Origin: Echinarachnius parma
Lineage: Eukaryota; Echinodermata; Echinoidea; Clypeasteroida; Echinarachniidae
Reading direction: 5' to 3'
Assembly (NCBI GenBank): GCA_037951105.1
Contig: JBAMJV010007495.1
Span: forward strand, 1 to 64,000
DNA: 64,000 nucleotides
This document shows positions 5,241-28,289 of this stretch, in pieces (the stretch's first letter is position 1; each line of letters opens with the position of its first letter). The position numbers and the translations under genes were made by a program. The notes beneath the pieces are model-generated. The model ran no database searches, was not told the DNA's origin, and saw nothing but the letters and a program-made list of their open reading frames with translations.

Positions 5241-5241
5241 C

Positions 5242-5266
5242 GGGGGGGGGGGGGGGGGGGGGGGGG
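5242..5266. repeat. Poly-G run (25)
   Basis: Uninterrupted G tract followed by diverged dispersed sequence (repeats of CCTTAGACATGG at 5328-5410). One of at least 13 G or C homopolymers of 15 or more in the window. Confidence 0.95.
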
Positions 5267-5854
5267 TACTCACGTATAGGTATACGGGGATGTGCCGCTG
5301 GGAAGGGTGACTTTTTTATGAAAGATCCTTAGACATGGGTCCCCTTTTCATAAAAAACATCCTTAGACATGGGTCCCATTAATTAAAAAAAAAACCTTAG
5401 ACATGGTCCCTTTTTTCATTTATTCCTTTCCCCCTCTTTTCTCCCTCATTTTCTCCGGGATTTTGGGATTTGCCGATGTGAAATTGCTACAATTTTCAAG
5501 CTCGCACCGCTCGCTCGCATTATTCATATTTATGCAAATTACCTTATCATAATTGAAGACTAATTTACTGTTTTTCTATCATTTGAAAATTTGAGAATTT
5601 CACCTCTGATTTGCACCAGATAGCTCCATTCTAGTGTAAAAATTGCCAAAGCTCCCTGGTGTCACCCCCCTCCCACACCCTCCCCCCGCTCGGTCGCTTC
5701 GCTCCCTCAAAGTATACACTTTCGCCCTCCCTAAGAAAATACCCTGCATGGCGCCGCCCCTGTATATATATGGTACAGTTTACTAATAAAGAATTTTGCC
5801 AAGAACGGCATCACTACAATATTCGGAGAGTCGGAAGACCAAAATTAGTAGCTA

Positions 5855-6494
5855 CCCCCCCCCCCCCCCCCCCCCCTAAATTGATCAATCTGAGTTCCCC
5901 ATGATACACAACGCATGGGTCAGAAGTAAAACGGAAAATTGTGTTATAAAAGTTCAATTTATTTAAATTAATGAACTTTTTTTTTTCTCTCTCTCAATTA
6001 TAATGCAGTATATAGCCTAGCAACTAAAAGTTAGTCTCCATTTCTGCATGATCGGTCGTTATAAATGTTCTAGTCATATATATATATATGTGTGAACGCA
6101 TCGAGTAAAAAAGTACAAAGTGGATTATACATAGAAAAAAACGTGGTGTGATATATATTATAGGCAATTATAACGTCTACTTGGTGGCCTAGTGTTGAAG
6201 GGGGGGGGGGGGGGGGGGGGGGGACTGATGCCTATTTGCCCAAAATAACTATATCACCCTTCTCTCATTTTCCTTACCGTTTGCTTTTAAAAAGAAGGAC
6301 CACAAATATTATGGTTTATTCCCGAAACTGATATAATTTTGCCCGAATATGACGGTTTTGACTAAATAACATGCGTTTACCCGAACTTTGAGTTAATAGT
6401 TTGCCCAAACGCGGGCGTGCTTTTTGCCCGCCCGAATATGGCCGTTTTCAAACTATAATCCAGCGGGGTGCTGCCCCCCCCCCCCCCCCCCCCC
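5855..6494. repeat. Cluster of G/C homopolymers within a CGGGCAAA-type repeat
   Basis: Contains C runs at 5855-5876 and 6474-6494 and a G run at 6200-6223. Around them is a repeat with recurring CCCGAATATG, TTGCCCAAA and TCGGGCAAAG phrases (6225-6640). The same wording recurs at 41565-41830, again next to C runs, so the run appears to be part of the element. Confidence 0.6.
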
Positions 6495-6639
6495 ACCTCC
6501 AACGCCTTGAAGGCAAGCAAAACCGGATTTGGAATGTCATATTCGGGCAAGGCTTATCTGTATCATATTTGGGCAAAATCATGCATGTTCGGGCAAAGTT
6601 ATCATTGTCAATCAGTAGGATTTAAAAATCATGGACAGA

Positions 6640-7270
6640 GAACTTTCTTCGAAAGTCTATTTTTTAGCTTGATTTCCTCAGTGAGCTTACATCTATATAT
6701 AAGAAGAAAAAAATTGACTCACTGATTATACAAACTGGATCACATTTCCTTCACCTGATAATGCTGATATTGTTCTGGATAATTTCGATCACTCCGATAT
6801 CCCGAATTTTGTTTTAAAAACGTGTACGTTTTGTATACACTTTTGTCAGTTTGTTTAGTATTCTTATGTTTGTATCATGGTAATCTACATTTCAGAGGTG
6901 GATATATACCGTATGGTACGACTTCCTGTACATAGTCTGTTCAGTAGACCTATATTTTTAGGTTTATGGGCTGCTCAATAATGACTGCTATTTTATGATA
7001 TCTCTTAGATGGTTTTTTTTTCTGTTTTTATAAATAAACTGAAACTCACCGAAAAGTGATGGGTATATATACCCAGTTAACTTTTGCATACCAGGCATAT
7101 GTTTTTTTTCTTCTTTTTTTCCAGTAGCCTATTAGTTTGGCTAAAAAACAGGAGAGGGCCGGCAAACGTTCTATATTACTACAATCTCTAAAAAAAACAA
7201 ACATTTTTCTTGACTAATTATTAAAGAAATAATTAACGAGTATTTGGTCACTGAGATTCCCTCCGTAGAT
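6640..7270. other. Intergenic, nothing assignable
   Basis: AT-rich sequence with no supported gene, RNA or element. A small C run lies at 7273-7284, before the AAAT microsatellite. Confidence 0.4.
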
Positions 7271-7284
7271 GACCCCCCCCCCCC

Positions 7285-7475
7285 AAAAAAAAAAAATTAA
7301 AAAATAAAATAAATAAATAAATAAAATAATAATAATAAATAAATAAAATAAAATTAAATAAATAAATAAATACTGATACAAATAAAACAATGAATAAAAT
7401 AAAAAATAATAAATCAATAAAATTAAATAAATCAATAAATAAATATATAAATACAAATAAATAAATAGATACAAA
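7285..7475. repeat. AAAT/AATA microsatellite
   Basis: Imperfect tetranucleotide array of AAAT units, reading as hydrophobic Tyr/Leu/Ile runs on the other strand. The minus-strand frames there are artefacts of the repeat. Confidence 0.9.
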
Positions 7476-8058
7476 AAAAATAACAAAACAAAATAGTAAA
7501 TCATAAATAAATAAACCAAAATTAAAGTCTACAACTACAAGCCCAACCAATGAGCAATATGGAAATTGATGTGCCGATATAGTCAAAATAATTCCTCGAA
7601 TTCACTTTATTTTGTAATAACCCTATTTGGGTAAGTGTGATTTTTTAATTTTTTAATATAAAAAATATCAAAAAGAAAACATAAACACAAACAAAAAACA
7701 TACAGTAATCCATTGACGACATGCAACGCCCCACGTGATAACAGACTGGAAATTTGGTTTACACAGTATACTAGTACTGTTAATAAAGTACGCGTTTGCT
7801 GACCGCTTACCACATCTTTTTTATTCACCTCATGTTCTTTGTCCCGAGTAGCAGCAATTACATAAACCTTAGCGTCCTTTCCGCGTTTTCCGCGCCATTT
7901 TGAGGCACGTGAATCGTCCGTTTACGTGTGGTTTAAATAGACGTATCGTGTAAATTGGGCTATTTCTGGCTTGTTTTATTCTGACAAAAAGTTCGTGTTT
8001 ATTCTCAATAATTACATCTTTTTGATTAGAAATTCAACAAGAATATCCTCCAGCAAGC

Positions 8059-8412
8059 ATGGACACCGAGGAAAACTCGAATTCTGCGGAATGGGCGGAA
8101 GGAGAAGCGGCTGACGCTGCAGCAAGTGCTGATGACATGTTGGAAACCGTAATGGAAGAAGTGCTGACCGACGATAAAACGCCACCTTCCAAGAAGGCGA
8201 AGAAGGAATCTCGGTGGAACAAGTACGGGAGGAAATACAATCGGGCCTGGGAGGAAGAGGAGGGTTTACGGAGGTGGATTTTGCCGGTACCTGGGGACGA
8301 TAAGACTGCGACCTGCCGATATTGTCGCTGCATTATTCGTGCCCATCATGGCGATTTGATTCAGCATGCTAAGACGGAAAAGCACGGAAAGAACGCTTCA
8401 CGGTTTTCCAAG
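8059..8412 (+). CDS. First exon of a BED/U1-like zinc-finger protein (partial)
   Basis: ATG at 8059; 118 codons to a consensus donor (TTTTCCAAG|GTGAGC), phase 0. The N-terminus is acidic and Ala-rich, followed by a basic PPSKKAKK stretch (possible nuclear signal) at about residue 53. Residues about 65-112 read like the single zinc finger found at the N-terminus of many DUF4371/hAT-derived and other BED-type proteins: conserved Trp and Tyr, WILPVPGDDKTATCRYC, then HGDLIQHAKTEKH (C-x2-C...H-x5-H). The upstream region has a CACGTG E-box (about 7906) and a TTTAAATAG TATA-like string (about 7932). The rest of the gene is not clearly found. One small in-frame exon candidate is listed at 9656, and the junction to the DNPEP exon at 12944 is also frame-compatible. 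Confidence 0.7.
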
Positions 8413-8489
8413 GTGAGCATACAGTTTTTGGCCAGGCGGGCAGGCTGGGGCGGCGGGCGCTGGCCGCGGCATCTAGCCGTGCGCGCGCT

Positions 8490-8558
8490 AAGCTAGCTAG
8501 CTAGCTAGCTCAGCTCATTCCGACATTCGTCATTGGCTATTTTTTTCTTGGACCTTGC

Positions 8559-8590
<32 letters not shown>
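8490..8590. repeat. AGCT tandem repeat and 30-base G run
   Basis: A short GCTA/AGCT array (about 8491-8512) is followed by an uninterrupted G tract at 8561-8590, just inside the intron after the BED exon. It is the longest G run in the window. Confidence 0.9.
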
Positions 8591-8591
<1 letters not shown>

Positions 8592-8599
8592 ACGGGTGT

Positions 8600-9650
8600 T
8601 CCCCCAACGATGAGTAAATATAATTCAGATAATTATTATTATTTATTCGGCCAGAATTCAAACAGATACAAAATGCAAAATACAAAATACAAACGGTCAA
8701 TAAACTTTATAAAGATAATTCAGATATAATTATAAATTAAAAAAAGAAGGCAAATTAAAATTAAAAACAACAACATCATTGTGTCCACATTCTTCCTGCC
8801 AGTTACGTCTTTAGTTACTTTAGGCTGCCTTAAGTTAGGCTTAGCCTAAGTAGTTACTTTAGCTGGCAGTCTCAACTCAAGTCAAGACAATGGCAAATCA
8901 AATGCGCATAGACATAGTCGTAGACAAAAAGTAGAGAAGAATAGAAAAAGTATTTTTAGCATGTTTGATGTATGGTTGAGTGACCTAAACTAGGCTACAC
9001 ATCGGCACGTCACCCTAAGATATTTTTGACAGTTTTAGACTTTAAAAATCATACAAATTTCATAAAACTTTACTCACACATTGAGAAAATAGTGCAGATT
9101 CCGATGCAATGATCAGATTTGCGATTTATAATTTAATTATATTTTGAGATATCATCTTCGAACGCGCGCATTGTTTTTTGGCTTCACGAGTTCGCAGTGT
9201 TTTTTTAAAACCGGCACCCCTTAACTCTCATTGACAACGCACGCAACTCAAAATTTCTTGTGCAATGTTGGCATCATTTCACAAATTTCAAAAAAAATAC
9301 ATGTTGCCAACGATAAGCGCATTATTTCTCCTCGAAATTTTGACCAACTGCAGTTTCTAAGGGTAGCGCGCATTATCACATACGCTTGTTCCTTCATGCA
9401 CGCACAACCAAACAGTAACAGTAACACACAGACACAGTGACACAAAACCATATCGAACTCGTAAGTAAAAGCCACTGCGTGTGATGCTTATTTGGGCACG
9501 CTGAACAAGCAGGAGGAATTGAAAGTGGTAAAAATATGTCGTTTTTAGAGCTTAAATTTCCTTGTTTATAGGAATTATGTTGACTAACAGTAACAGTCTA
9601 ACACATGACTAATCATCCGGGGTACACCCCCTGAACCCTTGCTCTTAATT
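8600..9650. other. Intronic/intergenic, nothing assignable
   Basis: A short inverted pair around TTACTTTAGGCTGCC/TTAGCCTAAGTAGTTACTTTAG (8810-8870) is the only structure noticed. No coding exon is supported; overlapping short ORFs at 9231-9475 occur on both strands and look accidental. Confidence 0.4.
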
Positions 9651-9655
9651 TCTAG

Positions 9656-9702
9656 ACCAAAGAACATCAGAAACTTACAAAAGGTCAGAAAGTGAAGCCA
9701 AG
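9656..9702 (+). CDS. Candidate small second exon of the BED-finger gene
   Basis: An acceptor-like TTAATTTCTAG precedes 47 bases that read on in frame from the phase-0 donor at 8412 (Thr-Lys-Glu-His-Gln-Lys...) and end at a consensus AAG|GTAAAG. Lys/Gln-rich content fits a linker after the finger. No homology was recognised, so the call rests on splice consensus and frame only. Confidence 0.25.
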
Positions 9703-10028
9703 GTAAAGTGTACTTTACCCTTCATTTTTCAAGACTTCATTATAAGACATTAACAAGAAACTTAGAAAGCCTTCAGAATTGCTTCTGTTCAGACTTCAGA
9801 CTGGCTTGAACTTGTGCTTTACTGTATTGAACCGTTTTACATTAATGGGCGAAGGGGGAGTTAGAGAGCATTATATCTATGCATCATACTGTATGTCTGG
9901 GTTTTAACAAAGTAGTGAGTTAAAAGATTAGGTATGTGAACTAGAAAAAAGGATTTGCATGTGTGATTTAGGTAGTGTGCGCATGAAGGAACAAGCGTGC
10001 AGAGGCTTGCCAGAGCTGTGGCGGTAAC

Positions 10029-12943: not shown

Positions 12944-13046
12944 CTGATTGGAAACTACACCACCATGAATTCCAGCAATAGAGAGATATTGGACACAGCC
13001 AGAGGTCTGATTTCCTTCATCAACAAGTCGCCATCCCCATACCATG
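12944..13046 (+). CDS. DNPEP: DNPEP coding exon 1
   Basis: Acceptor TTTATTTGCAG at 12943; 21 bases precede ATG 12965 and are open in the same frame. Encodes the N-terminal helix ending INKSPSPYH, the family's S-P-[ST/S]-P-[YF]-H motif; donor CATG|GTAAGC, phase 1. Confidence 0.95.
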
Positions 13047-16000
13047 GTAAGCATTTAAAAATTATTTATCAGTTATTAGCTGTATGAAATGGAGATTGGG
13101 GTGTGCATGTTGAATGGGGCATACTAGAGAAGCAGTCAGTGCTCAGTTCGGAACAAAGTTTGCTCAATGCAACATGCTATAAAGTCAGCTATTTGGAAAA
13201 TCTTGCAAGTTTATTAAGATTTTATTTTCTAAGATGTTTGTGAGATCTTCTAATTTTGAAAACTACATTATATATCAAATGTATTTCACAAATTATACAT
13301 TTACATTAATAATATTCAGGACTTGCCTTAAATAAGACTTTTAAAAATATTATTGTCTGGCCTGCAGGGCCACTTAATTAAAGGACAATGAAATCCAGAC
13401 GAATTGTTGTATGCACTATAAGACACTAAATATAATGAATAGTCCCTGAAAATTTGAGCACAATCGGTCTAGAAATAAGAAAACTATGGCTCTTTGAAAA
13501 GAGCCATGTATTTCTTCGAGTGACTCAAACTGGCAACGCACTCTGGCAAAGTTGTGGACAACTCCCCATACATTTAGTACACAAAATTTCAATTTTGTTC
13601 AATTTTCTCAAAATTTATGTTAACCCATCGTTCGAGTTCAACATATGTTTTGTAGAATGCTTTTATAACATATCATGAGTTGGGGGAATGAAAAAATGTG
13701 ACTATGAAGAAAACTGTAAAAATGGGAACTTTTGTGAACAAAACATATGGGGAGTTGTCCACACACTTATCAGAGTGCATTGCCAATTTGAGTTCCCCAT
13801 AGGATTAAATGGACATCTTCAAAGAGCCGTAGTTTTCTTGTTTCTTGCCCGATTATGCTCTAACTTTCAGAGATTATTCCTCTTAATCTCCTCAAGACTA
13901 TGAAAGCAACATTTTGCTTGGGTTTCATTGCCCTTTAAGCATGAGTTCAGGTGGCCTTATCTGATGGATCATCTGGTTGGTTGGCAACATGTTGAATCAA
14001 TATGATATAAACATCACATCACATATTTGAATTTCTAGTAGCTAGTCGGGGCACCTAATTGATGATATCAGGTGGCCCGGCAGCAATTATAGTGGCCATT
14101 GGCACCATGACCACCACTTAACCCGTTGCTTACAGGAACCGAGTGGGTCATGTACAAAGTCTATGGGGATTTCATAATCTCAAAGGGAATGGGTTAAGTT
14201 ACTGATGTTACTTTTACTGACCAACAGGGCTCTCTCTTAACTATTTTTTCAAAATTGCACATCCGATTATGTTGTAGATCCTAATAACAGTAGTTAGTGG
14301 CCAATACAGAGTTTCCACTAGCTTATTTCTAGTGGCCAAATTAAATTTCAGGTGGCCATTGGCACCCTGGCCACTGCTAAGGGCGAGACCTGACCAGTGT
14401 TAATTTGTCAAAGCCAAATCATTATCTTTGTATATATATTTGTGTCCAAACACAGTCGTGAATGAGTGTCGCAAGAGGCTCCTTGATGCAGGCTTCGATG
14501 AACTGAAGGAGAGAGACACCTGGTATCTTCTCCCAAAGAAGAAAGTGAGTAATTGTTTCAACTTCATTGGCTGAGAAAGAGAAGGGCACTAAATCACTTT
14601 TTGTACTTTTAACTACAGAGATAATCATGTTTGAAGACTATTGAAAGTCCTGTCAAAACCAAATGTAGCTCCCTTTTATATACACTCAAAAAAAGTTAAG
14701 GATAACTTTTTATTTTGTGTATAATTTTAAAATGACATATTTTACTCCTAAATGACCTCAGACACATTGTAATCAATATCACATGTGGTTCAGTTGTTGC
14801 ATAACGTCTCTTGCATCATTTTAAAAATCCAATGAGGACACCACCTAGTCAAACAAAAAAAGAAAGAACTAGGTAAGACCTCACTCATAGTTTGGGAAAA
14901 ATGCAAGTTAAGAAAAAAGTGATCCTTAACTTTTTTTGAGTAGTATATTTGATAAATATTCCCCAGATTAGGCATAATTATTATCTGAAATTGCCACATG
15001 ACATAGAGGAGGGGTCTGACCTACAAATACCCTTCTCCCTCTCATCAGACAACTTCTAGTTCTCGATGCAGTTTGCTCTGTATATCATCACATTTTCATT
15101 TGGTCTACTCCATAAAACCTGAATCTTACATAAAGTTCCACCACTTCAAACTTGATCTCCAACCCTAAACCTGACCCATTCTGCATGTGTATCTATAGAG
15201 ATTGGAGATTCACACATATATTGCCTTTGGATTAAGTAACCTATGTTTGGCAATACGTTCTATTGAACTTTCTAAATTCTTTCACTACTAATACAGAATG
15301 TATAATTAGTACTAATAATCCAATCTTACATACATGTACTTCATACATAAAGTTAGTAACGCACTTATTAGTTAATTGTTGACTTAATGTGGCATCTATG
15401 GATGGTGAATATTATAGGTCACCACAAATATTTATACAATTTTTGAAAACAGAAATCATTTTGAATCATTTTAAAATTATTTTTCATTGACAGTACTTCT
15501 TCACCAGAAATCAGTCGACTCTGATAGCGTTTGCCGTGGGAGGCAACTATGCGGCTGGAAATGGTTTCTCCATGGTCGGTGCTCACACTGACAGCCCGTG
15601 CTTGAGGGTAAGTTTATTGATACATAATTTATTAATAAGGATACAGCTGTTATGTAGGCTCTGCCTTTTTGTTGTACCTCCTTACAATTTTATTGTTTTT
15701 TTATGGAAATCATGCTGAATAAATTGAAAATTGAAATTTAATATAAAAAAACTGAATCATTGAGATTTCTATATATAAATGCATATCTTATTTGTTATGG
15801 AACTATATTGCATAATTTAAGAGTAAATTGTCATCAGAAAAGCTACAACTTAGTGACTATACATGTATGTAACTTGAAATGGCCCAACCATGATAAGGGC
15901 TCACATTGACAGTCCATGTTATTATATTCAAAGGAAACATAATTTGATCAAGATTTTCCCAGCAGTTACACTTGTGTGTACACTATTAAATCAAAATTAA

Positions 16001-19000
16001 CAATTTATTTATAAGTAAACAAAAGTTAAATTTGCTATATTTTGTCGTAGATTGGTATGCATACTATTCTCTCAAATAATGTAAATGCGGCTTTGGGTTT
16101 TGTAAAATCTTGAGTTTGACAAATTTGCTATAATTATCTTTATTGAAAGTGGACTTGCCAATTTATGCAATAAACTTGCTCCCTGTCTTAGGTGAAGCCT
16201 GTGTCCAAGATCGAGAAGCATGGCTTTGTTCAGGTTGCCGTGGAGACGTATGGAGGAGGAATCTGGAACACCTGGTTTGACCGTGACTTGACCGTTGCTG
16301 GACGTGTCCTGACTAGAGACAATGAGGTACTAACATAGTAAAATGTTTGTCCAACTACAAGAGAAAAACTGCTATTCCTTATACTGTGTAAATCTCAACA
16401 AAAAGCAAACATAATTTTTTGTTTAATTTTTTTTTTTGGGGGGGGGGGGGGGGGGGCAAGTAAATATTCTGTTCAGACAAGTAAAATTTGAAATATCATG
16501 ATTTTTCTTGCCTGAACGTGCCAGTAGAAAAGAAAGTCAGCGTGGAGGCTTGTATATATATGCTATGCTCCTAATACAGTGATGCCTCATGTTAATGTTC
16601 TGCACTTGTCCTATTTACAATAATTTCATGTTACAGGGATGTAGAAAAACAAATGTTTTTAATAGATAACAATTTTTTTTTTCGTTCTTCATACAGGATA
16701 AAGTTGAGCACAAACTGGTCCACATTGAAAAGCCTATCCTGAGGGTACCCAACCTGGCCATCCACCTCAACAGAACAGTCAACGATGGATTTGCTCCCAA
16801 CAAAGAAACAGATATGTAAGTTTGTGAGACGGTTTCGATTAGCAGAATTGTTGCATTAGAATTGATATTTGATAAAAATATTAAAAGCGACAGTTATTTA
16901 GATGTAATGGTTGCCTAGTTTGGTTCATGTCACACAGCCTATCCGTAGCATCGGGCTTTGGTTTTGAAATCAGTGGTTGATTTGCTCCCAACAAAAAAAT
17001 AAATGTGTTAGCTTGGGATAAGCATGACTTATGTTGATTTGTTGATTTGTATTATAAGAAAACCTGAGTAAATATGCATCATTAAGAAAATCTTAGTCAA
17101 AACTGATCCATTTGCCATGACATTTTCAGACTGTTTTGCGAGCATCTCTTCAAGTAGTCTGCCAGCGGGCAGGTTTAAAACTCATCAAGATCAGACTTCT
17201 CTCCCAAGTTATTACTATTTTGTTTGTAATGTGCATATATGGCCCTTTTGACACTGATTTTCAAGCGTAGACAGTTATAATGATATACATGTAATTGTCA
17301 ATCTTTCTCAATTCTAATTTTCTTGCACCTGGCAACAAATGTACCAAGTACCCTACAGTGTTGTAGTGCCTAACTTATGAGCTAAAATACAGGAAGGAAA
17401 TACAGTGCTGATATATTCCTGTCTTTGTTTTGTTCACTGTAGGAAGCCCATCCTGGCCACATCCGTCACTGCAGAGCTTGAGAAGGGAGGAGCACTAACG
17501 CTGCCCAAAGACATAATCAGCAGACAGCTAACGGTTAGTTTGGTCTATATTTCTTATTTGGATGTGGAGATAACTTGTTCCCTATCCCCATAGAGTTAAT
17601 ACAGGACCCACCACGTTCCTGTAGGCAATGGGTTAACCTGTTCCCTACTAGATGTTGCAATCCCCATAGAGTTAATACAGGGCCCATCAGGTTCCTGTAG
17701 GCAATGGGTTAACCTGTTCCCTACTAGATTTTGCAATCCCCATAGAGTTAATACAGGACCCACCCGGTTCCCGTAGACAATGGGTTAAAACTCAGTGCTT
17801 GAAATTAGCATAAGCCCGCTGGCCCAGGGCCACTTAAAATTAGCAATGGGCCACCAAATTTCATATATATATCCTAAATTCTACTAGCCCGTTCGTGCAA
17901 GCAAATGTAGCAGAATTTGTTATGTTTTTTTTTTTGGGGGGGGGGGGGGGGCCACCAGATTTAGGTTTCGGGCCACTAGAAGTTGATAATCTGGTTTTTT
18001 GACTGGGCCACAAGGCAAAAAGATTAATTTCTAGCATTTGTAGATGAATGTTGCCCTTAGACAGGTCACTCAATTCACATTTGTGTCTTGCAACCCAGGT
18101 AGAAATGGGGATCAGGTAGGAAAGTATTCTTTTGAATTATTCATGCGCCTTAATATTGTAGAGCTGGCTAAAGCTAGGGTGATAATCATTGATAGTACAT
18201 TCACTTTAAAACATTTAAAATGATATATAAGGGTTCTTTTTATCATCGTTATTATCATTATGTTTACTATTATTAATATTATCATTATAATTATTATTAT
18301 TATAATTATTATAATTATTATTATTATTATAATTATTATCATTATTATAATTATCATTATTATTATTATTATCATTAATAGTAGTAGTAGTATATTGCTA
18401 TTATTAGTATTATTAGTATTATTATTATGATGTTGATTGATCGATTTATTTTGTTCCCTCTGCTAAACCTTCTGCTGAATGCACAGAGTGAGAAGTATTC
18501 CAACATCCTGCTGGACCTGATGTAGTATATTGTTATTATTATTATGATGATGATGCTGATGATTGATTGATGTATTTGTTTCCCTCTGCTAAACCTTCTG
18601 CTGAATGCACAGAGTGAGAAGCATTCCAACATCCTGCTGGACCTGATGACCAAGCAGCTGGATGTTGCTGTGGAACAGTTCCTGGACTTTGACCTCTGCT
18701 TGGCCGATACACAGCCAGCGGTAAGTCTGAGTCTACTCATGTCAATAAACCCAGCAAAATATACTGCATATGCCTGTAGACATTGGGGGAAAAAGTCTGA
18801 GTCAGCAATGGAAAGATGAAAGTTTAAGAAATATTTAGTTGAACTTTTGCCTTATAAAATGTAAAGTAAAATGGATTCAAAAATGCAATGCTGCTAGATC
18901 ATACATGTTAGTGTAATGAAACTATCGGTTTTTTTTCATTGATTCATGCTTGTTACTTGTAATTATGCATTTTCAACGATTTCATTGCATTTTGCGTGTA

Positions 19001-22000
19001 CACCAGATTGTTTGAGTTGATTTTCTGATATTTGCAGATAGGGATGTATAAAAAGGTAAAGAAATCCTTTAAATTTAAGAAGAAAAAAAATAGCTTTCCA
19101 ATTTAAGTAATGATGCAGTATCTGCTTTGGTTACCTTGTAGATGAAACCTGCACAATACATTACTAGCTCCTTGGTGAAATTTGCAGAGAGGGATATATA
19201 CAAAGGTGAAGAAATCCTTTAACTCCTTGAGTGCTAAGCTCGCATTTTTGCGAGTTACAATACACACAAATGCCATAGAGCGTTACAATCCCGGACACAC
19301 AAAGTGTTAAATTAAGTACTGATGCAGTATGTGCTTTAGTTACCCTGTAGATGAAACATGTAAACAAAAATTTGTTCCTTTTTATTTTCAGGATATTGGT
19401 GGTGCCCTGGATGAGTTCATCTTTGCTCCGAGGCTGGACAACCTCTTCTGCTCCTACGCTGCCCTGCAGGTAAGAGGTTCAAATCTTAGCTAGAATTCTT
19501 TTTTCAGTAATTGTTTTTGTCCTTCAAGTAAGTTTGTAATCATCCCTTTTTGCTGGCCATGAATAATTGGTTCAAAAGAGCTATTAAGTATTTACTCTCT
19601 TATACTTTGATGTAATTTAAATGAACTTAATAAGTTATTGTAAAAAATAACATCATGCCCTCTTGCTCATGAATGAAAGGAGCTCTAAACCCACAAAAAC
19701 AAACGAAGCCCTAAACCCACAAAAATGAACTGCTGGAATGATGAAATCTATCTTAATATGACTGAGTGAGTAAGTTTAAATCATCACAGGAGCTTCTTGG
19801 CTCAGTTGGTAGAGCACCGGTCTAGCAGTCCGGAGGCCTCTGGTTCGAATCCCGGGGAAGCCCTATTTCCTTCGCTCATTTTCATATGTATTATATTTTT
19901 CTGGTCAGTTTCCCTGTGTTTGAAATAAAAGAAAATTTGAGTTCTAACAAAGTTGAATATGTTTGATTTTGTCTCTGTGCTAGAGTCTGATGTCATCCTG
20001 TGAGACCCCCAACAGTCTGGAAGATGATCCCAACATCAGAGCTGTCATGCTGTTTGACAATGAGGAGGTAAGAAATCATGTTTTATTATGATTGTTAGTT
20101 TGTATTAGTTGACATTAGTGTTAAAGTGATCCATTTACTTCATAAGATTTTCCATAAGTGATAGTTGAGGCTTCAATCATGTACCAATACCATTGTAGGA
20201 TTCTTCTGAATGATAGAAAAGAGTGCTGTTTACATTGTTAAAAAGTGAACATTGATGTCAGGTTTTATCACCTATTTGGGAATGTACCTCTTGTGCACAA
20301 TTTTCAGAACATTTTAGAAATAATTGCTCCCAAAACAACTATGAATAAAAATTGACTTGCTTATAAAAAATTGTAAAATTGTATATTATTGTGTATGCTC
20401 AAGTTGGTTCCACGAGTGCACAGGCAGCACATTCCCCTCTGGCGAAATACATAATGCTTAGGATCTCTTCCAGGCACATTAAATGTTAAATCTGTAAATT
20501 ATCATACTTATATCCTATTTAACTCTGTAAATCGTAGGTTGGTTCTATGAGTGCACAGGGAGCACAGTCCTCCCTGGCTGAGTACTTCATGCGTAGCATC
20601 TCAGCAGGGGTCAACAGACCTCCGAGGTCACGGGTCAACATACCTCTTTGTAGGTCTGGATTAAAATCTGAAACCTCAAAACTGAGTAGCCATTTTTCAA
20701 AACTTTCCTGTTAAACTATTTACCTGTTTTCTGTAAATCCTAGATTGGTTCCATGATTGCGCAGGGAGCAGTACTTCATGCTCAGGATGTCAGCAGGTGG
20801 ACAGCAGACATCCTTCTCGGTCAAGGGTCAAGAGACCTCATTCTAGGTCAGATAAATAGTTGAAATTTGTTTAACTTTCCTGTCAACTATTTAACTCTCC
20901 AATTGTAGGTTGGTTCTATGAGTGCGCAAGGAGCGCAGTCCTCCCTGGCTGAGTACTTCATGCGTAGGATCTCTGCCGGAGGACAGCAGACATCCTTTGA
21001 GGAATGCATCCCCAAGTCCTTCCTCATCAGTGCAGACATGGCACACGCCACCCATCCAAACTATCCGTAAGTTTCAGTTTCAGATTTAGTTTTAGTTAAT
21101 TCACATCCAATAAAATACTGTAATGCAACAATTAAATACAAAAATATAAGATTCAAACTATTTACAAGATATAACAAGATAGTTTAAGTTTTAGTGAATT
21201 TCACATCCTATGAAATACGGTAATACAACAATCAAATACAAAAATTAAGATTCAAACTATTTACAACGTATAACAGAATTAAATGCATGGGTACTGTATG
21301 GATGTGAGGGACCAGAAAGGCCATTGACCTGTCTGGCTGGTCCACCGTTTTCTACAATCCCATAATAAGCAAAATTATCAGTAAAGCAAGGTAATATATT
21401 GATAATATAAATTACATCAATTAGACATACACAAATACAAATGTAGGACAGGCAAGTAAAGGGCTCATGCCTTACATCAGGGCTCGACACTCACACTGGC
21501 CCGCTGGCCCGGGGCCAGTGAAATAGCACTTTGGGCCAGCAAAAATGTATAAAAGTAATATTTTGGTGGTCCGATCGGGCAAGCAGATTTTCAACCTGAC
21601 ATTGACAAAATGAGAACAATCTTGTTTTCTTCTTTGTCATGCTTCATCTTTAATCAAAGGGAATAAGAAAGAGTGATATATTGTATAGTTAAATGTTTAC
21701 TCATTAAATAACATTGTTGGGGCCAGTAATTTTTCTTTCAGGCCACAAGAATTGGGGAATAAGTTATTTTACTGGCCCGACCAGGCCACTGAGAAAAAAG
21801 TTGAGTGTGGAGCCCTGCCTACAATCTGAATTCATTTCACCAAATGAAAACGAAGTGCGGTAAAAGATGAGCAAATATTTCTAGACAGTTTTCTTATGTT
21901 TGAATTGATTTAATTTCACTAAGTTAGGCAGGTCATATTAAAATGTATGAAGGTGGTACACCTGCTTTTCTGACATGCTTACAATCCATTAGTTACACAT

Positions 22001-25000
22001 CATGTCGGCTATCTGTAATTAACTTGCCGTATATCCAAAATATTCTGAATTCATTTCACGAAATGAAAAAGAAATATGGTTAACAGGGCAACAACAATTC
22101 TGGTTAGTTTTCCTATGTTTGAATTTATTTTATTTCACTAAGTTACATGGTTGATATTAAAAAGTATGGAAGTGGTACTCTTGCTATTTCATATGCTTGA
22201 CAATCCAAGCTACACAACATCTCGACTACCTGAACTAAACTTGCTGTACATCCAAACTATCCTTTTGGCTATGCATCCCATGGTGGTTCCTGATTAGCTT
22301 AGATGTTGCACATACCTCCCGTTCGAATAAACAAGTTACACATTATGCATAAATCTTTGCTCCAGATGTGTAAGCATTTAATTGTTTGAACACATTTAAG
22401 TCAATTTTTAAATCAATTTCAAAATATAAATGTATGAAAGAAGCAAGCAAAAAATTATGTTTAACAAAATTAAACTTCTTGCCTTACTGATTATCTTATT
22501 GAATCACTTTTTACATTTTCTCTGTATTTGTAATGTTTCATTCTTTATTTTTTTATTGCAGGCAAAAACATGAAGAAAATCATACAATTGGACTCCACAA
22601 GGTATGTGTTACTAGTCAAACAGTAAACAAATCGCTTTCAATGTATCTTCTTATAATAAAATCACTGCTCATGCACCAAGATTGTGATATTTATCAGTAA
22701 TTTATGTTTTGAAGAAATGGGCATTCTAAGTTCACATAATGTGTGTAAAAGACTCATGATTGTAAAATTAAAACAATCACACAACCTCGCCAATTATTGA
22801 CCGATTTGTTATAGAACAAAGCATCAAATGAAAGCTTGTGATGAGGGCTTTCTAATGGTAAGAACATCTACATTTTGATTTTTACCCACAAGTACAGGGT
22901 TTTGCTAAAGCCGGTCACAAATATTGAACGATGCCTGTGTTCAGGCTGCTAATAGGAATCAGTAATTTTGTAATTTGGATGTTTACTTATTTTGTCTTTA
23001 AATGATCTGCAAAACATGGAAAGATATGGTGGAAGTATTAATATCCCATGGGAATTATCAATTTTATCATTCAATCATCGAGTTCACCTTAACTCCTATC
23101 GTGCCAAGCTCGCATTTTTGCAAGTTACAATGCACACAAATGCCATAGAGCAATAAAATCCCTGGCACGTTAAGAGTTAACACGGCTAACCTATCATAAA
23201 TGTATTTTCCCTATAAAAATCATAAATCATAAAAGGTCTTATTAATTGTTTCCTCTCACACTATTGCACACATGTTTTTCTGTACAGGTCTTGCAAAAAT
23301 AATTCATGAAGAACCATCTCCACCAGATTTTTACTCTCTCTTTTAATGTGTTAAACAAATATTGCTCATCCTATTCCTCCTTATGACACTGTCAATGCAG
23401 GGCCCTGTACTAAAGATCAACAAAAACTAGCACTATGCGATTTCAGAATCTCGAAGGGAACATGTTTATTGATCCCTATCTCACTATTGCACACATTTTC
23501 CCCCTTATGTCTTGCAAAATCATTCTAGAAGTGCCCTCTCCACTAGAACTTCACTCTCTTTAAATCTCTTTAAATTACCAAAAATGTATTGTTGATATGA
23601 TCCCTCCTTTACACATTGTCCATGCAGGGTCCTGTACTCAAGATCAACAACAACCAGCGCTATGCGACCACTGCTGTCACGTCATCCATCGTCCGACTAC
23701 TTGCAGAGAAAGTCGAGGTGCCCCTTCAGGTAAAATTACACGCTTTCAAGTTATTTTAAATTCATTATAGATATGACATTTCAAGTGGAACAGTAAAAGA
23801 GAGGTTTCCCCACCTTCAATTTACTTTTGATTATGTTCTCTACACATTAAAACATAATTTCATGCAGATATGTCCAACGTTTACCCTCTGAACAAGGGAG
23901 GGGCATTGTTCAAAGTCACTCGCTGTATGGGCTTGTCCCATTCATCGCTTACAGCATGGAGGCTGCCATTATATTTTTTGAAACCCAGATTTTGAATTGT
24001 TCGCGCTAAAATGTTACGTCAAACCCGAACAAACAAGCTTGGCCTCTTTTTGTTAGCTGAATTCAACCAATCAATAATTTTTTGCAGAAAAAAGTTGATC
24101 TTTCCATTCGGGCATATTTTGTATATTTCTAACATATTTGCTAATCATTAGAAAGTACATGATGGCAATTCAATAGACTGAAAATGTTTCAACAGGAGTT
24201 TGGTATGCGTTATGACATGCTGTGTAGAATTACAATAGGACCAACTCTAGCATCTATTCTGGATATGCATGTGATACATTAAACTACAGGTGTAGTAGAT
24301 AAAGAGGATTCGTCTTTATTGGAATTATAGAATTGTTACTGACATTAATTTTGTATGAATTTCTTTTCATGAATAGGAATTTGTAGTGAGGAACGACATG
24401 CCGTGTGGAAGTACCATCGGACCAATATTGGCGTCCGCCTTGGGCATGCGTGTTGCAGACTTGGGTTGCCCGATGCTGAGTATGCACTCTTGCCGTGAGA
24501 TGTGCTGTACATCGGGAGTGCTCCAGCTTATTCTTCTACTCAAGGTACCTAGTTCTATTTGAACTAATTTGTTTGTTTGTGTGGATTTGTATATGTTTGT
24601 TAATGTGTTTGTTGGTTTTGATATGATTTGTTTGTTTGTTTGTTTGTTTGTTTGTTTGTTTGTTTGTTTGTTTGTTTGATTGCTTGTTTGTTTTGGGGGA
24701 AGGGATTGCATAGCTTTACAACTGAAATCAGTGCACATAGAGCATTGTCTAGAATGATGATCTCTTAACATAACGTGTGTTTTTACAAAAACAGCAATTC
24801 CATGTGGACGTGGTGTGGCAAGATCGGTAGAGCGCACACTTTCTGATCGTGAGATTCCGAGTTCGAACCCTGCCCACTCCGTTTGTCCTTCAGCAAGGCA
24901 TTTAATCCACATTGCTGCTCTCTACCCAGGTGTAAAATGGGTACCATGGTCGGGTGTCAATTAGCTTTCGCGCCATTGGCAGCATATGGCTAGTATGCTC

Positions 25001-25530
25001 CCCAGGGAGTTGAGAAAGTATGCAATATCATTGTGTGGGTTTGAACTGTACCTGATGACCATGGGTAATAATATTTGCGCTTAGAAACCCTGTATTAAGT
25101 GCGTTATAAATGCAAGTTATTATTATTATTATTATTAAAGGAAAATGTAAATGCATCATACAGGCTGGGTGCAAGTAAGATATATACCTGTTCATGTCTT
25201 CTTGAATAGCTATGTGTCTGTCCTATTTTCTTTATTGGCCTAGAACCTTAGTCTAGAGATAGTCATAGCTGTTGTAACATAAGTTCTGGTACAAGTTTTT
25301 ATTTGTCACTCTCTTCTATTTCAGATTCTCATAATCATGTTTTATACTCTCTTCTTTTTTATTTCTCCTACTTCTCCAGAACACACGTTTGGTACAAGTT
25401 TTAATTTGTCACTCTCTTCTATTTTATATTCTAATAATCATGTTTTATACTCTCTCTCTTCTGTTTGATTTTTTCCTAGTCGTTCTTCGAGAACTTCCCA
25501 GCCGTTGATGCCAATGTACTAGTGGACTGA
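12944..25530 (+). CDS. DNPEP: Aspartyl aminopeptidase, M18 family (14 coding exons, complete)
   Basis: Cytosolic metallo-aminopeptidase that removes N-terminal Asp or Glu from peptides; M18 enzymes form dodecamers with a dinuclear metal site. Exons: 12944-13046 (ATG 12965 after ACCACC), 14456-14544, 15494-15607, 16192-16326, 16697-16815, 17443-17533, 18613-18720, 19392-19469, 19984-20067, 20909-21066, 22562-22601, 23628-23729, 24377-24544 and 25480-25530 (TGA). All junctions are GT-AG and keep one frame, giving 472 aa, against about 475 in human. Metal and catalytic residues by family knowledge: His88 (GAHTDSP), Asp262 (PRLDN), Glu299/Glu300 (DNEE), Asp343 (SADMAHA) and His437 (MHSCRE), all present. 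There is no signal peptide. An acceptor just before the ATG shows that a 5' exon lies further upstream. Introns carry SINEs, MITEs and decayed copies of exons 3, 5, 7, 10, 12 and 13. Confidence 0.97.
13378..13938. mobile_element. Long foldback TTAA element, copy 2
   Basis: TTAAAGGACAATGAAATCC at the left and GGTTTCATTGCCCTTTAA at the right, with intact TTAA on both sides and 561 bp of long imperfect inverted arms. Strongly similar throughout to 2218-2804. It sits in DNPEP intron 1, inside an older GGTGGCC-type repeat. Confidence 0.85.
13950..14400. repeat. GGTGGCC repeat fragments and an AATGGGTTAA unit
   Basis: Repeated GGTGGCCTTATCTG, AGTGGCCATTGGCACC and AGGTGGCCATTGGCACC phrases belong to the GGCCC family. 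At 14118-14196 lies AACCCGTTGCTTACAGGAACC...GAATGGGTTAA, the inverted form of the repeat tandemly arrayed at 17577-17786. Confidence 0.5.
14456..14544 (+). CDS. DNPEP: DNPEP coding exon 2
   Basis: Completes the split Val codon and encodes [20 protein letters not shown], the conserved helix following SPSPYH. Donor AAGAAA|GTGAGT, phase 0. Confidence 0.95.
14681..14943. mobile_element. MITE, CACTCAAAAAAAGTTAAGGAT termini
   Basis: Terminal inverted repeats: ACTCAAAAAAAGTTAAGGAT and ATCCTTAACTTTTTTTGAGT, with TA-rich flanks. 263 bp, non-coding. The ends look Tc1/mariner-like. It lies in DNPEP intron 2. Confidence 0.8.
15494..15607 (+). CDS. DNPEP: DNPEP coding exon 3 (first metal-ligand His)
   Basis: Encodes [13 protein letters not shown]...[17 protein letters not shown]. 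His88 of GAHTDSP is the first metal ligand and Asp90 the associated acidic residue. Donor AGG|GTAAGT. A decayed copy of its 3' end lies about 280 bp downstream. Confidence 0.97.
15882..15925 (+). pseudogene. Ghost of DNPEP exon 3 (3' part)
   Basis: CATGATAAGGGCTCACATTG followed by ACAGTCCATG matches exon 3's CATGGTCGGTGCTCACACTG and ACAGCCCGTG with scattered substitutions, about 280 bp downstream of the true exon. It has no donor and is not part of the mRNA frame. Confidence 0.65.
16192..16326 (+). CDS. DNPEP: DNPEP coding exon 4
   Basis: 45 codons containing [17 protein letters not shown], a highly conserved M18 segment leading into the dimerisation domain. Bounded by CTGTCTTAG and GAG|GTACTA. 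Confidence 0.97.
16430..16550. repeat. T run then 19-base G run in a GGCAAGTAAA repeat
   Basis: TTTTTTTTTT followed by G at 16438-16456, then GCAAGTAAATATTC and CAGACAAGTAAAATTTGAAA. The composition and the T-then-G order match 17928-17952, inside another copy of the GGCCC family. Confidence 0.55.
16697..16815 (+). CDS. DNPEP: DNPEP coding exon 5
   Basis: Encodes [16 protein letters not shown], the family's R[IV]P.LAIHL motif, within the dimerisation domain. Phase 2 donor (GATAT|GTAAGT). Confidence 0.97.
16960..17010 (+). pseudogene. Ghost of DNPEP exon 5 (3' end)
   Basis: GATTTGCTCCCAACAAAAAA followed by ATAAATGTGTTAG corresponds to exon 5's GATTTGCTCCCAACAAAGAA, ACAGATATGTAAG and its donor, about 165 bp downstream of the functional copy. 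The donor GT is retained in modified form, but no acceptor-bounded exon remains. Confidence 0.7.
17443..17533 (+). CDS. DNPEP: DNPEP coding exon 6
   Basis: [16 protein letters not shown] corresponds to human VPILATAIQEELEKG. Completes Met180 and ends at ACG|GTTAGT, phase 0. Confidence 0.95.
17577..17790. repeat. Tandem repeat, about 79-bp unit, 2.7 copies
   Basis: Unit contains CTTGTTCCCTA, CCCCATAGAGTTAATACAGG and GGCAATGGGTTAA. A single copy of the same sequence near 60770-61230 has been split at its TTAA by the element at 60809-61190. Confidence 0.9.
17795..18040. repeat. GCTCGAAATTA/GGCCC family copy
   Basis: GTGCTTGAAATTAGCATAAG, then GCCCGCTGGCCCAGGGCCAC, a T9-G17 tract (to 17952), and GGGCCACAAGGC...TTAATTTCTAGCATT at the right. 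The inverted termini are weak but recognisable. Confidence 0.6.
18240..18430. repeat. ATT/ATC microsatellite
   Basis: Long imperfect array of ATT, ATC and AGT trinucleotides immediately before the ghost of exon 7. The intact exon copy is also preceded by a short ATT/ATG array (18533-18560), showing that the microsatellite was part of the duplicated unit. Confidence 0.9.
18463..18524 (+). pseudogene. Ghost of DNPEP exon 7 (5' part)
   Basis: CTCTGCTAAACCTTCTGCTG, AATGCACAG and then 37 bases of exon 7 (AGTGAGAAGTATTCCAACAT...) nearly identical to the functional copy at 18593-18652. It breaks off right after CTGGACCTGATG into TAG. The acceptor is intact; used, it would introduce a stop codon. 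It is the youngest ghost of the set. Confidence 0.9.
18613..18720 (+). CDS. DNPEP: DNPEP coding exon 7
   Basis: Encodes the [13 protein letters not shown] helix and [11 protein letters not shown], matching human [12 protein letters not shown] truncated tandem copy of its 5' part lies 127 bp upstream. Confidence 0.97.
19030..19370. repeat. Intronic tandem duplication, one copy split by a 92-bp element
   Basis: TTTGCAGATAGGGATGTATA...AAATTTAAG...GATGCAGTATCTGCTTTGGT at 19030-19150 is repeated at about 19182-19365. The second copy differs by a precise insertion at TTAA (19219-19310). Confidence 0.85.
19219..19310. mobile_element. 92-bp TTAA mini-element, copy 1
   Basis: TTAACTCCTTGAGTGCTAAG... 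to ...GTGTTAA, with GCTCGCATTTTTGCGAG as an internal palindrome. The neighbouring tandem unit has GAAATCCTTTAAATTTAAG at the same place, giving the empty site and proving the TTAA duplication. Other copies at 23089-23180 and 51109-51204. Confidence 0.85.
19392..19469 (+). CDS. DNPEP: DNPEP coding exon 8 (bridging Asp)
   Basis: [18 protein letters not shown] carries Asp262, the bridging metal ligand of the M18 site (P-R-L-D-N). Confidence 0.97.
19793..19866 (+). repeat. tRNA-like sequence, head of a tRNA-derived SINE
   Basis: Cloverleaf-like: an A-box-like GGCTCAGTTGGTAGAGCACC, then CCGGTCTAGCAGTCCGG (anticodon arm reading AGC, with an unpaired end), and a B-box GGTTCGAATCC; GCTTC and GAAGC could form the acceptor stem. 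The following sequence (TATTTCCTTCGCTCATTTTC) is shared with minus-strand relatives at about 43968-44053 and 45840-45930. A dispersed tRNA-derived family is therefore more likely than a functional tRNA-Ala gene. Confidence 0.65.
19984..20067 (+). CDS. DNPEP: DNPEP coding exon 9 (catalytic Glu)
   Basis: Ends in MLFDNEE, giving catalytic Glu299 and metal ligand Glu300. The start of the exon ([12 protein letters not shown]) is the variable loop. Confidence 0.97.
20113..20280. repeat. Truncated copy of the TTAAAGTGATCC element
   Basis: Starts TTAAAGTGATCCATTTAC and runs through GCTTCAATCATGTACCAATA, AGAGTGCTGTTTAC and GGTTTTATCACC, matching the left half of the element at 61380-61929. No right end was seen. 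Confidence 0.55.
20395..20482 (+). pseudogene. Ghost of DNPEP exon 10, oldest copy
   Basis: GTTGGTTCCACGAGTGCACA, then GGCAGCACATTCCCCTCTGG, CGAAATACATAATGCTTAGG and ATCTCTTCC align with exon 10's first half but with many substitutions. The preceding acceptor is lost (CTCAAG). Confidence 0.75.
20539..20660 (+). pseudogene. Ghost of DNPEP exon 10, best-preserved upstream copy
   Basis: After an intact acceptor (AAATCGTAG), the first 24 or so codons of exon 10 are nearly unchanged ([19 protein letters not shown]). The sequence then diverges at GGGGTCAACAGACC and reaches no proper donor. It could act as a decoy acceptor. Confidence 0.9.
20743..20850 (+). pseudogene. Ghost of DNPEP exon 10, third copy
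   Basis: CCTAG|ATTGGTTCCATGATTGCGCA, followed by a deletion within the AGTCCTCCCTGGCTG part, then GTACTTCATGCTCAGGATGT and GGACAGCAGACATCCTTC. Together with the other two ghosts and the real exon it makes a four-unit tandem array. Confidence 0.88.
20909..21066 (+). CDS. DNPEP: DNPEP coding exon 10
   Basis: Encodes [13 protein letters not shown] and the [13 protein letters not shown] segment with ligand Asp343. The intron just upstream contains three decayed copies of this exon's first half. Confidence 0.97.
21480..21830. repeat. GGCCC family copy with GGGCTCGACACTCA ends
   Basis: GGGCTCGACACTCACACTGG and GCCCGGGGCCAGTGAAA at the left; GGCCACTGAGAAAAAAGTTG and AGTGTGGAGCCCTG at the right, in inverted relation. 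It sits in DNPEP intron 10. Confidence 0.7.
21826..22262. repeat. Two-unit tandem duplication in DNPEP intron 10
   Basis: TCTGAATTCATTTCACCAAA...ATCCAAAATATT (unit 1, to about 22045) is repeated as TCTGAATTCATTTCACGAAA...ATCCAAACTATCC (unit 2), about 210 bp each and diverged. The last bases of unit 2 (ACATCCAAACTATCC) echo the 3' end of exon 10 (CCATCCAAACTATCC), so the unit may have included the exon end. Confidence 0.75.
22562..22601 (+). CDS. DNPEP: DNPEP coding exon 11 (micro-exon)
   Basis: Forty bases encoding [13 protein letters not shown], matching human DKHEENHRPLFHK. Frame continuity (phase 2 in, phase 0 out) supports both splice sites. Confidence 0.95.
22740..22925 (-). repeat. Dispersed repeat with ACAAGTGCAGGGTTTTGC end
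   Basis: Inverted relative to the copy at 53400-54620: shared phrases are AACAAAGCATCAAATGAAAG, CACAAGTACAGGGTTTTGCT and AAGCCGGTCACA. This uninterrupted copy serves as the empty site for the Helentron-like insertion in the other. Confidence 0.7.
23089..23180. mobile_element. 92-bp TTAA mini-element, copy 2
   Basis: TTAACTCCTATCGTGCCAAG at the left and CTGGCACGTTAAGAGTTAA at the right; same internal GCTCGCATTTTTGC and same length as copy 1. Confidence 0.85.
23394..23447 (+). pseudogene. Ghost of DNPEP exon 12 (5' part)
   Basis: AATGCAG|GGCCCTGTACTAAAGATC, AACAAAAACTAGCACTATGC: an intact acceptor and about 14 recognisable codons, with CAG changed to the stop TAG. The duplicated unit (about 23247-23450 versus 23470-23690) also includes the upstream TCACTATTGCACACAT intron sequence. 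Confidence 0.9.
23628..23729 (+). CDS. DNPEP: DNPEP coding exon 12
   Basis: [17 protein letters not shown]...EVPLQ matches human GPVIKVNSKQRYASNAV...VPLQ. A decayed copy of its first half sits about 230 bp upstream. Confidence 0.97.
24190..24275 (+). pseudogene. Ghost of DNPEP exon 13 (5' part)
   Basis: AACAG|GAGTTTGGTATGCGTTATG, ACATGCTGTGTAGAATTACA, ATAGGACCAACTCTAGCATC aligns with the functional exon 187 bp downstream, but with over a quarter of positions changed and an in-frame TAG. Confidence 0.82.
24377..24544 (+). CDS. DNPEP: DNPEP coding exon 13 (last metal-ligand His)
   Basis: [16 protein letters not shown] is the signature M18 segment, and SMHSCREMC gives ligand His437. Acceptor CATGAATAG; donor AAG|GTACCT. 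Confidence 0.97.
24600..24685. repeat. TTTG microsatellite
   Basis: About 17 TTTG units in DNPEP intron 13, with flanking imperfect GTTTGTT sequence. Confidence 0.95.
24802..25137 (+). mobile_element. tRNA-derived SINE with LINE-like tail
   Basis: tRNA-like head (GTGGCAAGATCGGTAGAGCG A-box; GAGTTCGAACCC B-box) followed by a conserved body (CTCCCCAGGGAGTTGAGAAA, TTGAACTGTACCTGATGACC) and an L2/CR1-like tail ending TTATAAATGCAAG and ATT repeats. Body and tail copies recur at 27470-27646 and 59500-59950. Confidence 0.8.
25480..25530 (+). CDS. DNPEP: DNPEP last coding exon
   Basis: Encodes [16 protein letters not shown] and TGA, corresponding to the family C-terminus (GFFELFP...LLVD). Possible poly-A signals downstream are AATAAA at about 26043 and AAATAAA at about 27887. 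Confidence 0.95.
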   Translation, partial: SFFENFPAVDANVLVD

Positions 25531-27469: not shown

Positions 27470-27646
27470 TATTGGCTAGATATTGGCTAGTATGCTCCTC
27501 AGGGAGTTGAGAAATTACACAATATCATTGTGTGGGTTTGAACTGTACCTGATGACCTCGGGTAATGATAATAATTTGCGCTTAGAAACCCTGTATAAGT
27601 ATAAGCGCTATATAAATGCAAGCTATTATTATTATTATTATAATAA
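27470..27646 (+). mobile_element. 5'-truncated SINE body and tail
   Basis: TATTGGCTAGTATGCTCCTC, AGGGAGTTGAGAAATTACAC, GCGCTATATAAATGCAAGC and an ATT array, aligning with 24975-25137. The tRNA-like head is missing. Confidence 0.8.
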
Positions 27647-28289
27647 GGCAATGTTCATGGTCCCAAGGACCTTGTTATAACAAGGTCTCACTTTATTTAG
27701 CCAGCTTTTCTACTGTCTAGAAGAAGTGGTACAAATTTTTGGAAAAGTTTGTAAATGTTGTAATCTAGTACTATTATGCTTTCTGATTGAATGTACATGT
27801 ACATTTGTATATCTCAAAATTTTCGAATGTAAGCAATGTTAATCAACATAATGAATTGTTGAAAACTTTTGTTGTTGAATTTGCAAAATAAACTGATTTT
27901 CTGACATAACGCTGTCTATTAATAAGAATACATTATTCTTGCATAATTTAATTGTATTTAAATTATACCTGAGTGTATGCATGGGGTTGTTTTCATGTGC
28001 GTGTGTTTGTTTGGGTTTTTAAAACTACACAACTGAGGACTTAGCAGAAAGAAAATGTCTTAGAACAGTTAATTAGCCATGGGGGGTTGCATAATAGTTC
28101 TTGATTTTAAATAATAAACATTTGTCTTAGGTTTCAGGGGATTACAAACGATAGTAGTACATTTTAGACCACTATATATTTTTTCCCAGTAACATAGTTT
28201 GCTGGATGGCATCCTCACAAATCCTATCACCTTGCTATAAAAACAGTATTTTTAAAAATGATTTAAAAAAAAACACATTTTTATTGTGA

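Follow-up and report, generated by a model that had tools for sequence, protein, structure and literature searches.

We have analyzed a 64,000-nucleotide stretch of genomic DNA from Echinarachnius parma (assembly GCA_037951105.1, contig JBAMJV010007495.1, positions 1 to 64,000; hereafter, the window), and in particular the gene for aspartyl aminopeptidase, DNPEP, that lies within it. The introns of this gene hold decayed, partial copies of its exons, which we term ghosts, and comparable copies are present in each of seven loci of another gene family sampled elsewhere in the genome. In total, 20 of 45 sampled exons (6/14 in DNPEP and 14/31 in the other seven loci) are accompanied by at least one ghost. 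Most ghosts consist of part of an exon together with adjoining intron, and the explanation that we consider probable is one of recurrent tandem duplication, in units of near nucleosome size, after which the copies that carry a single splice site decay neutrally.

The DNPEP gene itself is intact. Its 14 exons, joined at GT-AG introns, give an uninterrupted frame of 472 amino acids that matches the aspartyl aminopeptidase chains 7u5h, 3var, and 4dyo over nearly all of its own length (phmmer, E ~4e-185), and the family was found at a single place in the assembly, which comprises 1.2 billion bases in 14,790 contigs. Each of the 14 exons was compared by blastn with the 12–27 kb region of the window, using as a threshold the score of the weakest ghost (32.6 bits), a value that was reached by one of 2,800 dinucleotide-shuffled exons. 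Nine ghosts of six exons were recovered at or above this score, all of them on the forward strand. Together with their parent exons, whose ends were taken from the splice model, they are as follows:

12965–25530, forward strand: DNPEP coding exons 1–14
15494–15607, forward strand: parent exon 3
15866–15918, forward strand: ghost of exon 3, exon positions 55–107, downstream of its parent (blastn, 69.8%, E 2e-4); homology possibly extends to 15945, or to 15968 at lenient gap costs
16697–16815, forward strand: parent exon 5
16970–17018, forward strand: ghost of exon 5, downstream, with the final 37 exon bases and the donor region (blastn and alignment; the blastn match is 16970–17004, 80%, E 2e-4)
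18387–18522, forward strand: tandem copy containing the ghost of exon 7 (18487–18522, first 36 bases, acceptor kept; blastn, 97%, E 5e-10); the second copy is 18522–18648, with a 1-base overlap
18613–18720, forward strand: parent exon 7
20403–20471, forward strand: ghost 10A, exon 10 positions 1–69, AA in place of the acceptor (blastn, 77%, E 4e-11)
20538–20623, forward strand: ghost 10B, exon 10 positions 1–87, acceptor AG kept (blastn and alignment; 88.5%, E 4e-23)
20744–20815, forward strand: ghost 10C, exon 10 positions 1–89 with an internal deletion, acceptor AG kept (alignment; blastn detects 20770–20815, 87%, E 8e-10)
20909–21066, forward strand: parent exon 10
22259–22327, forward strand: ghost 10D, exon 10 positions 84–152, downstream (blastn, 66.7%, E 4e-5)
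23225–23440, forward strand: copy containing the ghost of exon 12 (23401–23440; blastn, 87.5%, E 2e-8); the second copy is 23447–23667, and blastn gives 23242–23440 and 23465–23667 for the pair
23628–23729, forward strand: parent exon 12
24196–24272, forward strand: ghost of exon 13, exon positions 1–77, acceptor AG kept (blastn and alignment; 66%, E 6e-6)
24377–24544, forward strand: parent exon 13

A first-pass annotation of this DNA had claimed eight ghosts, and all eight were present at the places, and derived from the exons, that it had named; the ninth, ghost 10D, was absent from it. Its statement that the upstream ghosts keep their acceptors held for those of exons 7, 12, and 13, and for 10B and 10C, and failed for 10A. 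The weakest of the nine are the ghosts of exons 3, 5, and 13 and the downstream ghost of exon 10. The ghost of exon 7, read by eye, runs into an in-frame TAG at the junction of the two copies. For exons 1, 2, 4, 6, 8, 9, 11, and 14, no forward-strand copy reached 32.6 bits in the region searched, and the best match of any DNPEP exon to the reverse strand of that region had an E value of only 0.098. Two further candidates were dismissed as chance: a 14-base exact match to the tail of exon 10 (22249–22262, E 0.31), which lies inside a 219-base intronic repeat, and a match to exon 4 at 22908 (E 0.035).

Control loci were obtained by a profile search of the genome for the chaperonin family PF00118, which we take to be the CCT subunits, and consisted of segments of seven loci, one of which was represented by two copies. 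The exons considered were those detected by the family model in the fetched stretches, with their ends placed by splice-site scoring, apart from the fourth exon of locus L026, which was set by hand; a low score was obtained for the acceptor of L022 exon 2. Ghosts on the reverse strand were found for none of the 48 exons tested. As a sample of the genomic background, we used 18 stretches taken at even steps of contig number (169,905 bases), two of 20 intended places having yielded no stretch; when the 45 exons were compared with these 170 kb, no match on either strand reached 32.6 bits.

Across the eight loci we compiled 32 ghost entries, three of which had re-found a neighboring ghost (DNPEP 10A, the second entry for L020 exon 3, and the first for L027 exon 3), and once these are dropped there are 29 distinct ghosts in 20 exons. 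Both the 5′ and the 3′ exon boundaries are affected, with 22 entries upstream and 10 downstream of the parent. Of the upstream entries, 18 have their first aligned base among exon bases 1–3 and none extends to the exon end; of the downstream entries, eight extend to the exon end and none includes the start. The polarity that had been proposed from the DNPEP ghosts, with exon starts upstream and exon ends downstream, is contradicted by none of the 32 entries, and it is the one that an intra-exonic breakpoint has to produce. The two downstream entries that stop short of the exon end are that of L024 exon 4, where the fetched stretch itself ends, and the DNPEP exon 3 ghost. A copy of a whole exon was found in none of the 29 distinct ghosts. 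Random placement of units, with sizes as observed, would yield whole-exon copies in 30% (DNPEP) or 8% (other loci) of the units that touch an exon, and a rough calculation, which assumes that ghosts are independent, gives a chance of ~0.01 for the deficit. Such a deficit would follow if selection eliminates most whole-exon copies, which splicing would include.

Within DNPEP, a clear head-to-tail geometry is seen for exons 7 and 12 only. The two copies at exon 7 adjoin with the 1-base overlap noted above and are reported by Tandem Repeats Finder (TRF) with a period of 126, and those at exon 12 are separated by 6 or 24 bases, depending on the method. Two of the exon 10 copies abut, the exon 13 copies are 44 bases apart, and those of exons 3 and 5 lie farther from one another in alignments of exon plus intron, which were made with lenient gap costs, such that their outer ends are soft and the alignment of 10D plainly overran. 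Later insertions account for some of the spacers, and not obviously for all. At locus L020, a self-complementary fold-back element of ~310 bases (7161–7470) splits the ghost of exon 5 of the chaperonin-family gene, and its insertion looks younger than the ghost that it divides.

The ghosts share a size class with local repeats in general. Offsets of up to 1,500 bases were counted in repeat clusters. Of 109 clusters, 24 were excluded because their unit recurs elsewhere in the sampled loci, which left 85 locus-unique events; the primary offset of a cluster was the smallest within it, which introduces a bias to small sizes. Offsets of 100–250 bases made up 63 of the 85 events (28 of 42 when only the background stretches are considered), with a peak at ~140–225 bp in the sampled genome. 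Of the ghost entries, 21/32 have an offset of 126–227. An ungapped scan of 284 kb (background stretches, gene loci, and window), which counts all segments and in which many-copy arrays add some weight, returned 24–34 segments per 20-base step between 140 and 220 bases, 12 at 220–240, and 3–6 at 240–300, compared with 5–12 below 140 and 7.5–10.5 from 300 to 500. When repeats were implanted, at least 96 of 100 were detected at 160–500 bases at both divergences used, and 78 and 49 of 100 at 60 bases, figures that apply to the unmasked ungapped scan and not to the blastn offset counts. Given this high detection between 160 and 500 bases, the upper edge of the peak is real, and limited power is part of the reason for its lower edge. 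Direct pairs predominate in the sampled genome, at 10.2 per 10 kb against 2.2 for inverted pairs.

Duplications are also over-represented at exons. In the eight genes, 20 of 34 duplication loci overlap an exon, versus a mean of 10.7 when the exons of each region were rotated within it, and 20 was reached in none of 2,000 rotations. The excess, ~1.9-fold, is about what would be given by the longer recognizability of half-constrained pairs: ghosts can be recognized longer than pairs in which both members are intronic, because one member of the pair is constrained, and this can explain the excess near exons, while leaving room for a true preference of duplications for exons. Purely intronic tandem duplications are found in DNPEP as well:

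21082–21275, forward strand: purely intronic tandem duplication of 99–100 bases, intron 10 (TRF and blastn)
21825–22263, forward strand: purely intronic tandem duplication of 219 bases, in the size class of the ghost units, intron 10 (TRF and blastn)
25276–25478, forward strand: purely intronic tandem duplication of 104 bases, intron 13 (blastn)

The DNPEP introns also contain two copies, 84% alike, of a 92-base element (19219–19310 and 23089–23180), the first of which seems to split an intronic duplication, whose offsets on either side of the element are 150 and 209. Larger tandem arrays lie outside the gene at 40083–40926 (unit 323 bases), 44523–45060 (205), 48969–49370 (75), and 53639–54379 (151).

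One of the control genes was met on two contigs, as L020 and L023, which are 95.3% identical over 5,207 aligned bases and, judged from their sequences, are likely to be alleles or very recent duplicates. The same two exons carry ghosts on both contigs, and no exon ghost differs in number between them; the distance of a second, weak ghost of the first of these exons is 230 bases in one and 295 in the other. Ten indels of at least 8 bases separate L020 and L023. One of these, of 146 bases, corresponds by eye to one copy of a 149-base tandem pair, and therefore at least one duplication of this sort is currently variable in copy number; inspection of the others by eye revealed no further tandem-copy indel. 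A 158-base self-complementary stretch near position 2297 of L023, apparently a small fold-back element, is absent from L020.

The ghosts have diverged in a manner consistent with neutral decay. By codon position, the differences between ghost and parent number 94 of 757 (first), 72 of 759 (second), and 202 of 752 (third). Of the 29 distinct ghosts, 19 are disrupted by a frameshift or an in-frame stop. The third-position excess first suggested constraint on the exon parts of the ghosts, a possibility that we rejected when the differences were split by parent base: at parent G/C sites they amount to 15.8, 15.0, and 26.8% for codon positions 1, 2, and 3, and at parent A/T sites to 8.3, 5.9, and 26.9%. 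By rough arithmetic, this pattern fits a free ghost and a parent whose changes are mostly silent. Splice signals are often retained, with AG kept in 15 of the 18 entries aligned there (13/16 without re-found neighbors) and GT in 7 of 8 (6/7), a retention that is not clearly above chance at that sequence identity. In the ghost of exon 7, one of 36 exon bases differs and all 33 adjoining intron bases are equal; the repeat-rich intron part farther upstream is less alike (0.81). Its exon part is thus about as young as the difference between L020 and L023. The remaining ghosts are far older, and the events are accordingly dispersed in time.

We suggest that these observations reflect a genome in which short stretches are frequently duplicated head to tail, with a preference for units of ~100–230 bases. 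When a breakpoint falls within an exon, one copy would remain complete and be spliced, and the other would retain only a portion of the exon, with a single splice site; unrecognized as an exon, the truncated copy would be tolerated and would decay neutrally inside the intron. A unit that starts in the upstream intron would produce an upstream ghost with the exon start, and one that ends in the downstream intron would produce a downstream ghost with the exon end. The duplication step might be either an error on the lagging strand, of nucleosome-set size, or the joining of ends at staggered breaks, with the link to nucleosome or Okazaki size suggested by the numbers alone.

Several results weigh against this explanation, and some of them favor another, in which patches of ~40–150 bases are copied by template switching and inserted ~100–200 bases away, leaving a non-homologous spacer in between. 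The intron halves of the units have diverged more than the exon halves predict: neutral decay of head-to-tail copies should, by rough arithmetic, leave an identity of ~0.8, yet in the 17 units that could be tested the mean global identity of the intron halves was ~0.69, compared with ~0.60 for shuffled sequences. Four units exceeded all 50 shuffles, eight lay between, and five were at or below the shuffle mean. With a strict aligner, whose null of 60 random places still gave some high scores, at least 90% of the period was covered in 36 of 86 local repeats (75–300 bases), 60–90% in 14, and less than 60% in 36. The poorly covered repeats and the five lowest units are what patch copying would give, as are several pairs that are 87–93% identical over 40–110 bases and have 60–130 bases between them that lack homology at the strict setting. 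For many units, the head-to-tail origin is accordingly putative. Moreover, the exon sample comprises 45 exons, drawn from DNPEP and a single gene family, and the data are the genomic sequence of this one genome. Against patch copying, the offsets remain within a single narrow range regardless of how long the homologous block is; the copies at exon 7, at exon 12, in a 148-base pair at L020, and at L027 exon 3 (by eye) abut or nearly so; and one spacer, at L020, is explained by the insertion of an element. As a general account we regard patch copying as unlikely, and it is possible that copying with a spacer applies to part of the set.

Tandem duplication followed by neutral decay fares better against the remaining alternatives. 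Selection might have kept the ghosts as alternative or poison exons that regulate DNPEP, in keeping with the retained acceptors of most upstream ghosts, but the codon-position pattern fits one free copy, most ghosts are broken by a stop or frameshift, no ghost retains more than one exon edge, and the same phenomenon is seen in the seven other loci; we judge this to be very improbable. Even less credible is an error of assembly or haplotype, by which alleles or misjoined reads were stacked in a contig. Both alleles of at least one gene do seem to have been kept in the assembly; nevertheless, most copies fall far below 95.3% identity and contain indels and stops, the same two exons carry ghosts on two contigs, DNPEP was found once, and the exon 7 join is single and clean. 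Just as hard to credit is a driver specific to DNPEP, such as a fragile site. The first-pass annotation had implied one, in taking the number of events to mark the gene as unusual, and had proposed the same analysis of other genes as a check. Duplication clusters are indeed denser in DNPEP than on average in the sampled stretches (7.1 versus 3.4 per 10 kb), but the two densest of the 18 stretches also have ~7, local direct repeats cover 23% of the bases in DNPEP and 18% in the sampled genome, and direct pairs number 12.6 per 10 kb in DNPEP against the background value given above. With a similar frequency of exons with ghosts in the seven control loci, DNPEP is not exceptional, and the implied hotspot is contradicted.

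Other features of the window deserve brief mention. Positions 1–10000 differ from the remainder of the window in containing no local direct repeat pairs at the setting used for the pair counts per 10 kb; among the TRF results for this part are a 34-base unit at 5321–5415 and low-complexity arrays. Intron 1 of DNPEP contains a fold-back element, an inverted repeat (13437–13608 and 13708–13879) with arms of 172 bases that are 77% complementary, and intron 8 contains a tRNA-Ala (AGC) gene on the same strand as DNPEP (19790–19864; ARAGORN; Rfam tRNA, 41.1 bits). Two related dispersed sequences were recognized by eye at 24810–25135 and 27475–27650; the former starts like a tRNA and ends in a TTA run, and is presumably akin to a tRNA-derived short interspersed element, and the latter resembles its 3′ part. 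Finally, an open frame at 58595–59065 has a weak match to the metallopeptidase M12 domain (Pfam Reprolysin_5, 21.9 bits, below the cut-off of 27).

The closest known counterpart is the "mirage" structure of amphioxus globin genes, in which tandem copies lie across exon–intron boundaries at both exon edges, in units of 150–160 and 157 bases (PMC3087553, PMC3902484). The same accounts describe Gb6 haplotypes that differ in copy number, and splicing that was reported to be undisturbed (PMC3087553, PMC3902484). The two cases are alike in having diverged, boundary-spanning copies of a 5′ or 3′ edge, many with splice signals kept, and in the length of the unit, which there overlaps the offsets of most ghosts here; the units of amphioxus Adh3, given there as 10–72 bases, are shorter. 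Copy number differs between haplotypes in amphioxus; between L020 and L023, one intronic 149-base pair differs in number and no exon ghost does. With regard to splicing, the uninterrupted frame of DNPEP shows no more than that the usual splicing would work. The ghosts would thus appear to be of the mirage kind, at high density. The amphioxus examples come from a handful of lancelet loci; what is added here is a frequency in sampled exons across eight loci, a size class measured in the sampled genome, and a pattern of decay. A literature search of limited coverage found no genome-wide count of exon-edge copies.

Other processes share some of these features. Introns are reportedly gained by the internal duplication of segments that bear AG/GT, as is said to have been described by Rogers and, in 2009, by Gao and Lynch (both cited in PMC3087553). 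Short internal duplications with splice signals are common to both situations, but the copies described here sit and decay inside existing introns; new introns were not searched for. Small tandem duplications are reportedly linked with natural insertions in rice, in work of Vaughn and Bennetzen from 2014 that is cited in PMC8355091. Such duplications can arise when breaks that have complementary 3′ overhangs are filled in by CST/Pol alpha-primase and their ends are joined, as outlined in that report (PMC8355091). They too are head-to-tail, but the insertions in that report are shorter than 100 bases, compared with a mode of ~140–225 here. Tandemly duplicated alternative exons are whole exons, with both splice sites, that are used in splicing; none of the distinct ghosts is whole, and that class was not encountered among them. 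Like the ghosts, such mutually exclusive exons come about by local duplication of exon sequence (PMC5740500).

So far, duplications that clip an exon have been described as curiosities, each in an individual gene of lancelets. Should clipped copies accompany nearly half of a genome's exons, these would constitute a countable record of a mutational process, in which conserved exons serve as fixed yardsticks by which to date each copy, place its breakpoints, and follow the decay of its splice site. A broader claim, which we put forward tentatively and hold with rather less confidence than the explanation of the ghosts themselves, is that this is a standing, genome-wide process that proceeds in near nucleosome- or Okazaki-sized steps and leaves nearly half of exons with a readable clipped copy, such that introns may grow largely in this way and every gene may repeatedly test new arrangements of splice sites. 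The size of short tandem duplications and the growth of introns thereby become questions that could be tested in one genome, as does the question of how splicing ignores, at exon 7, a near-identical acceptor located 126 bases upstream of the true one.

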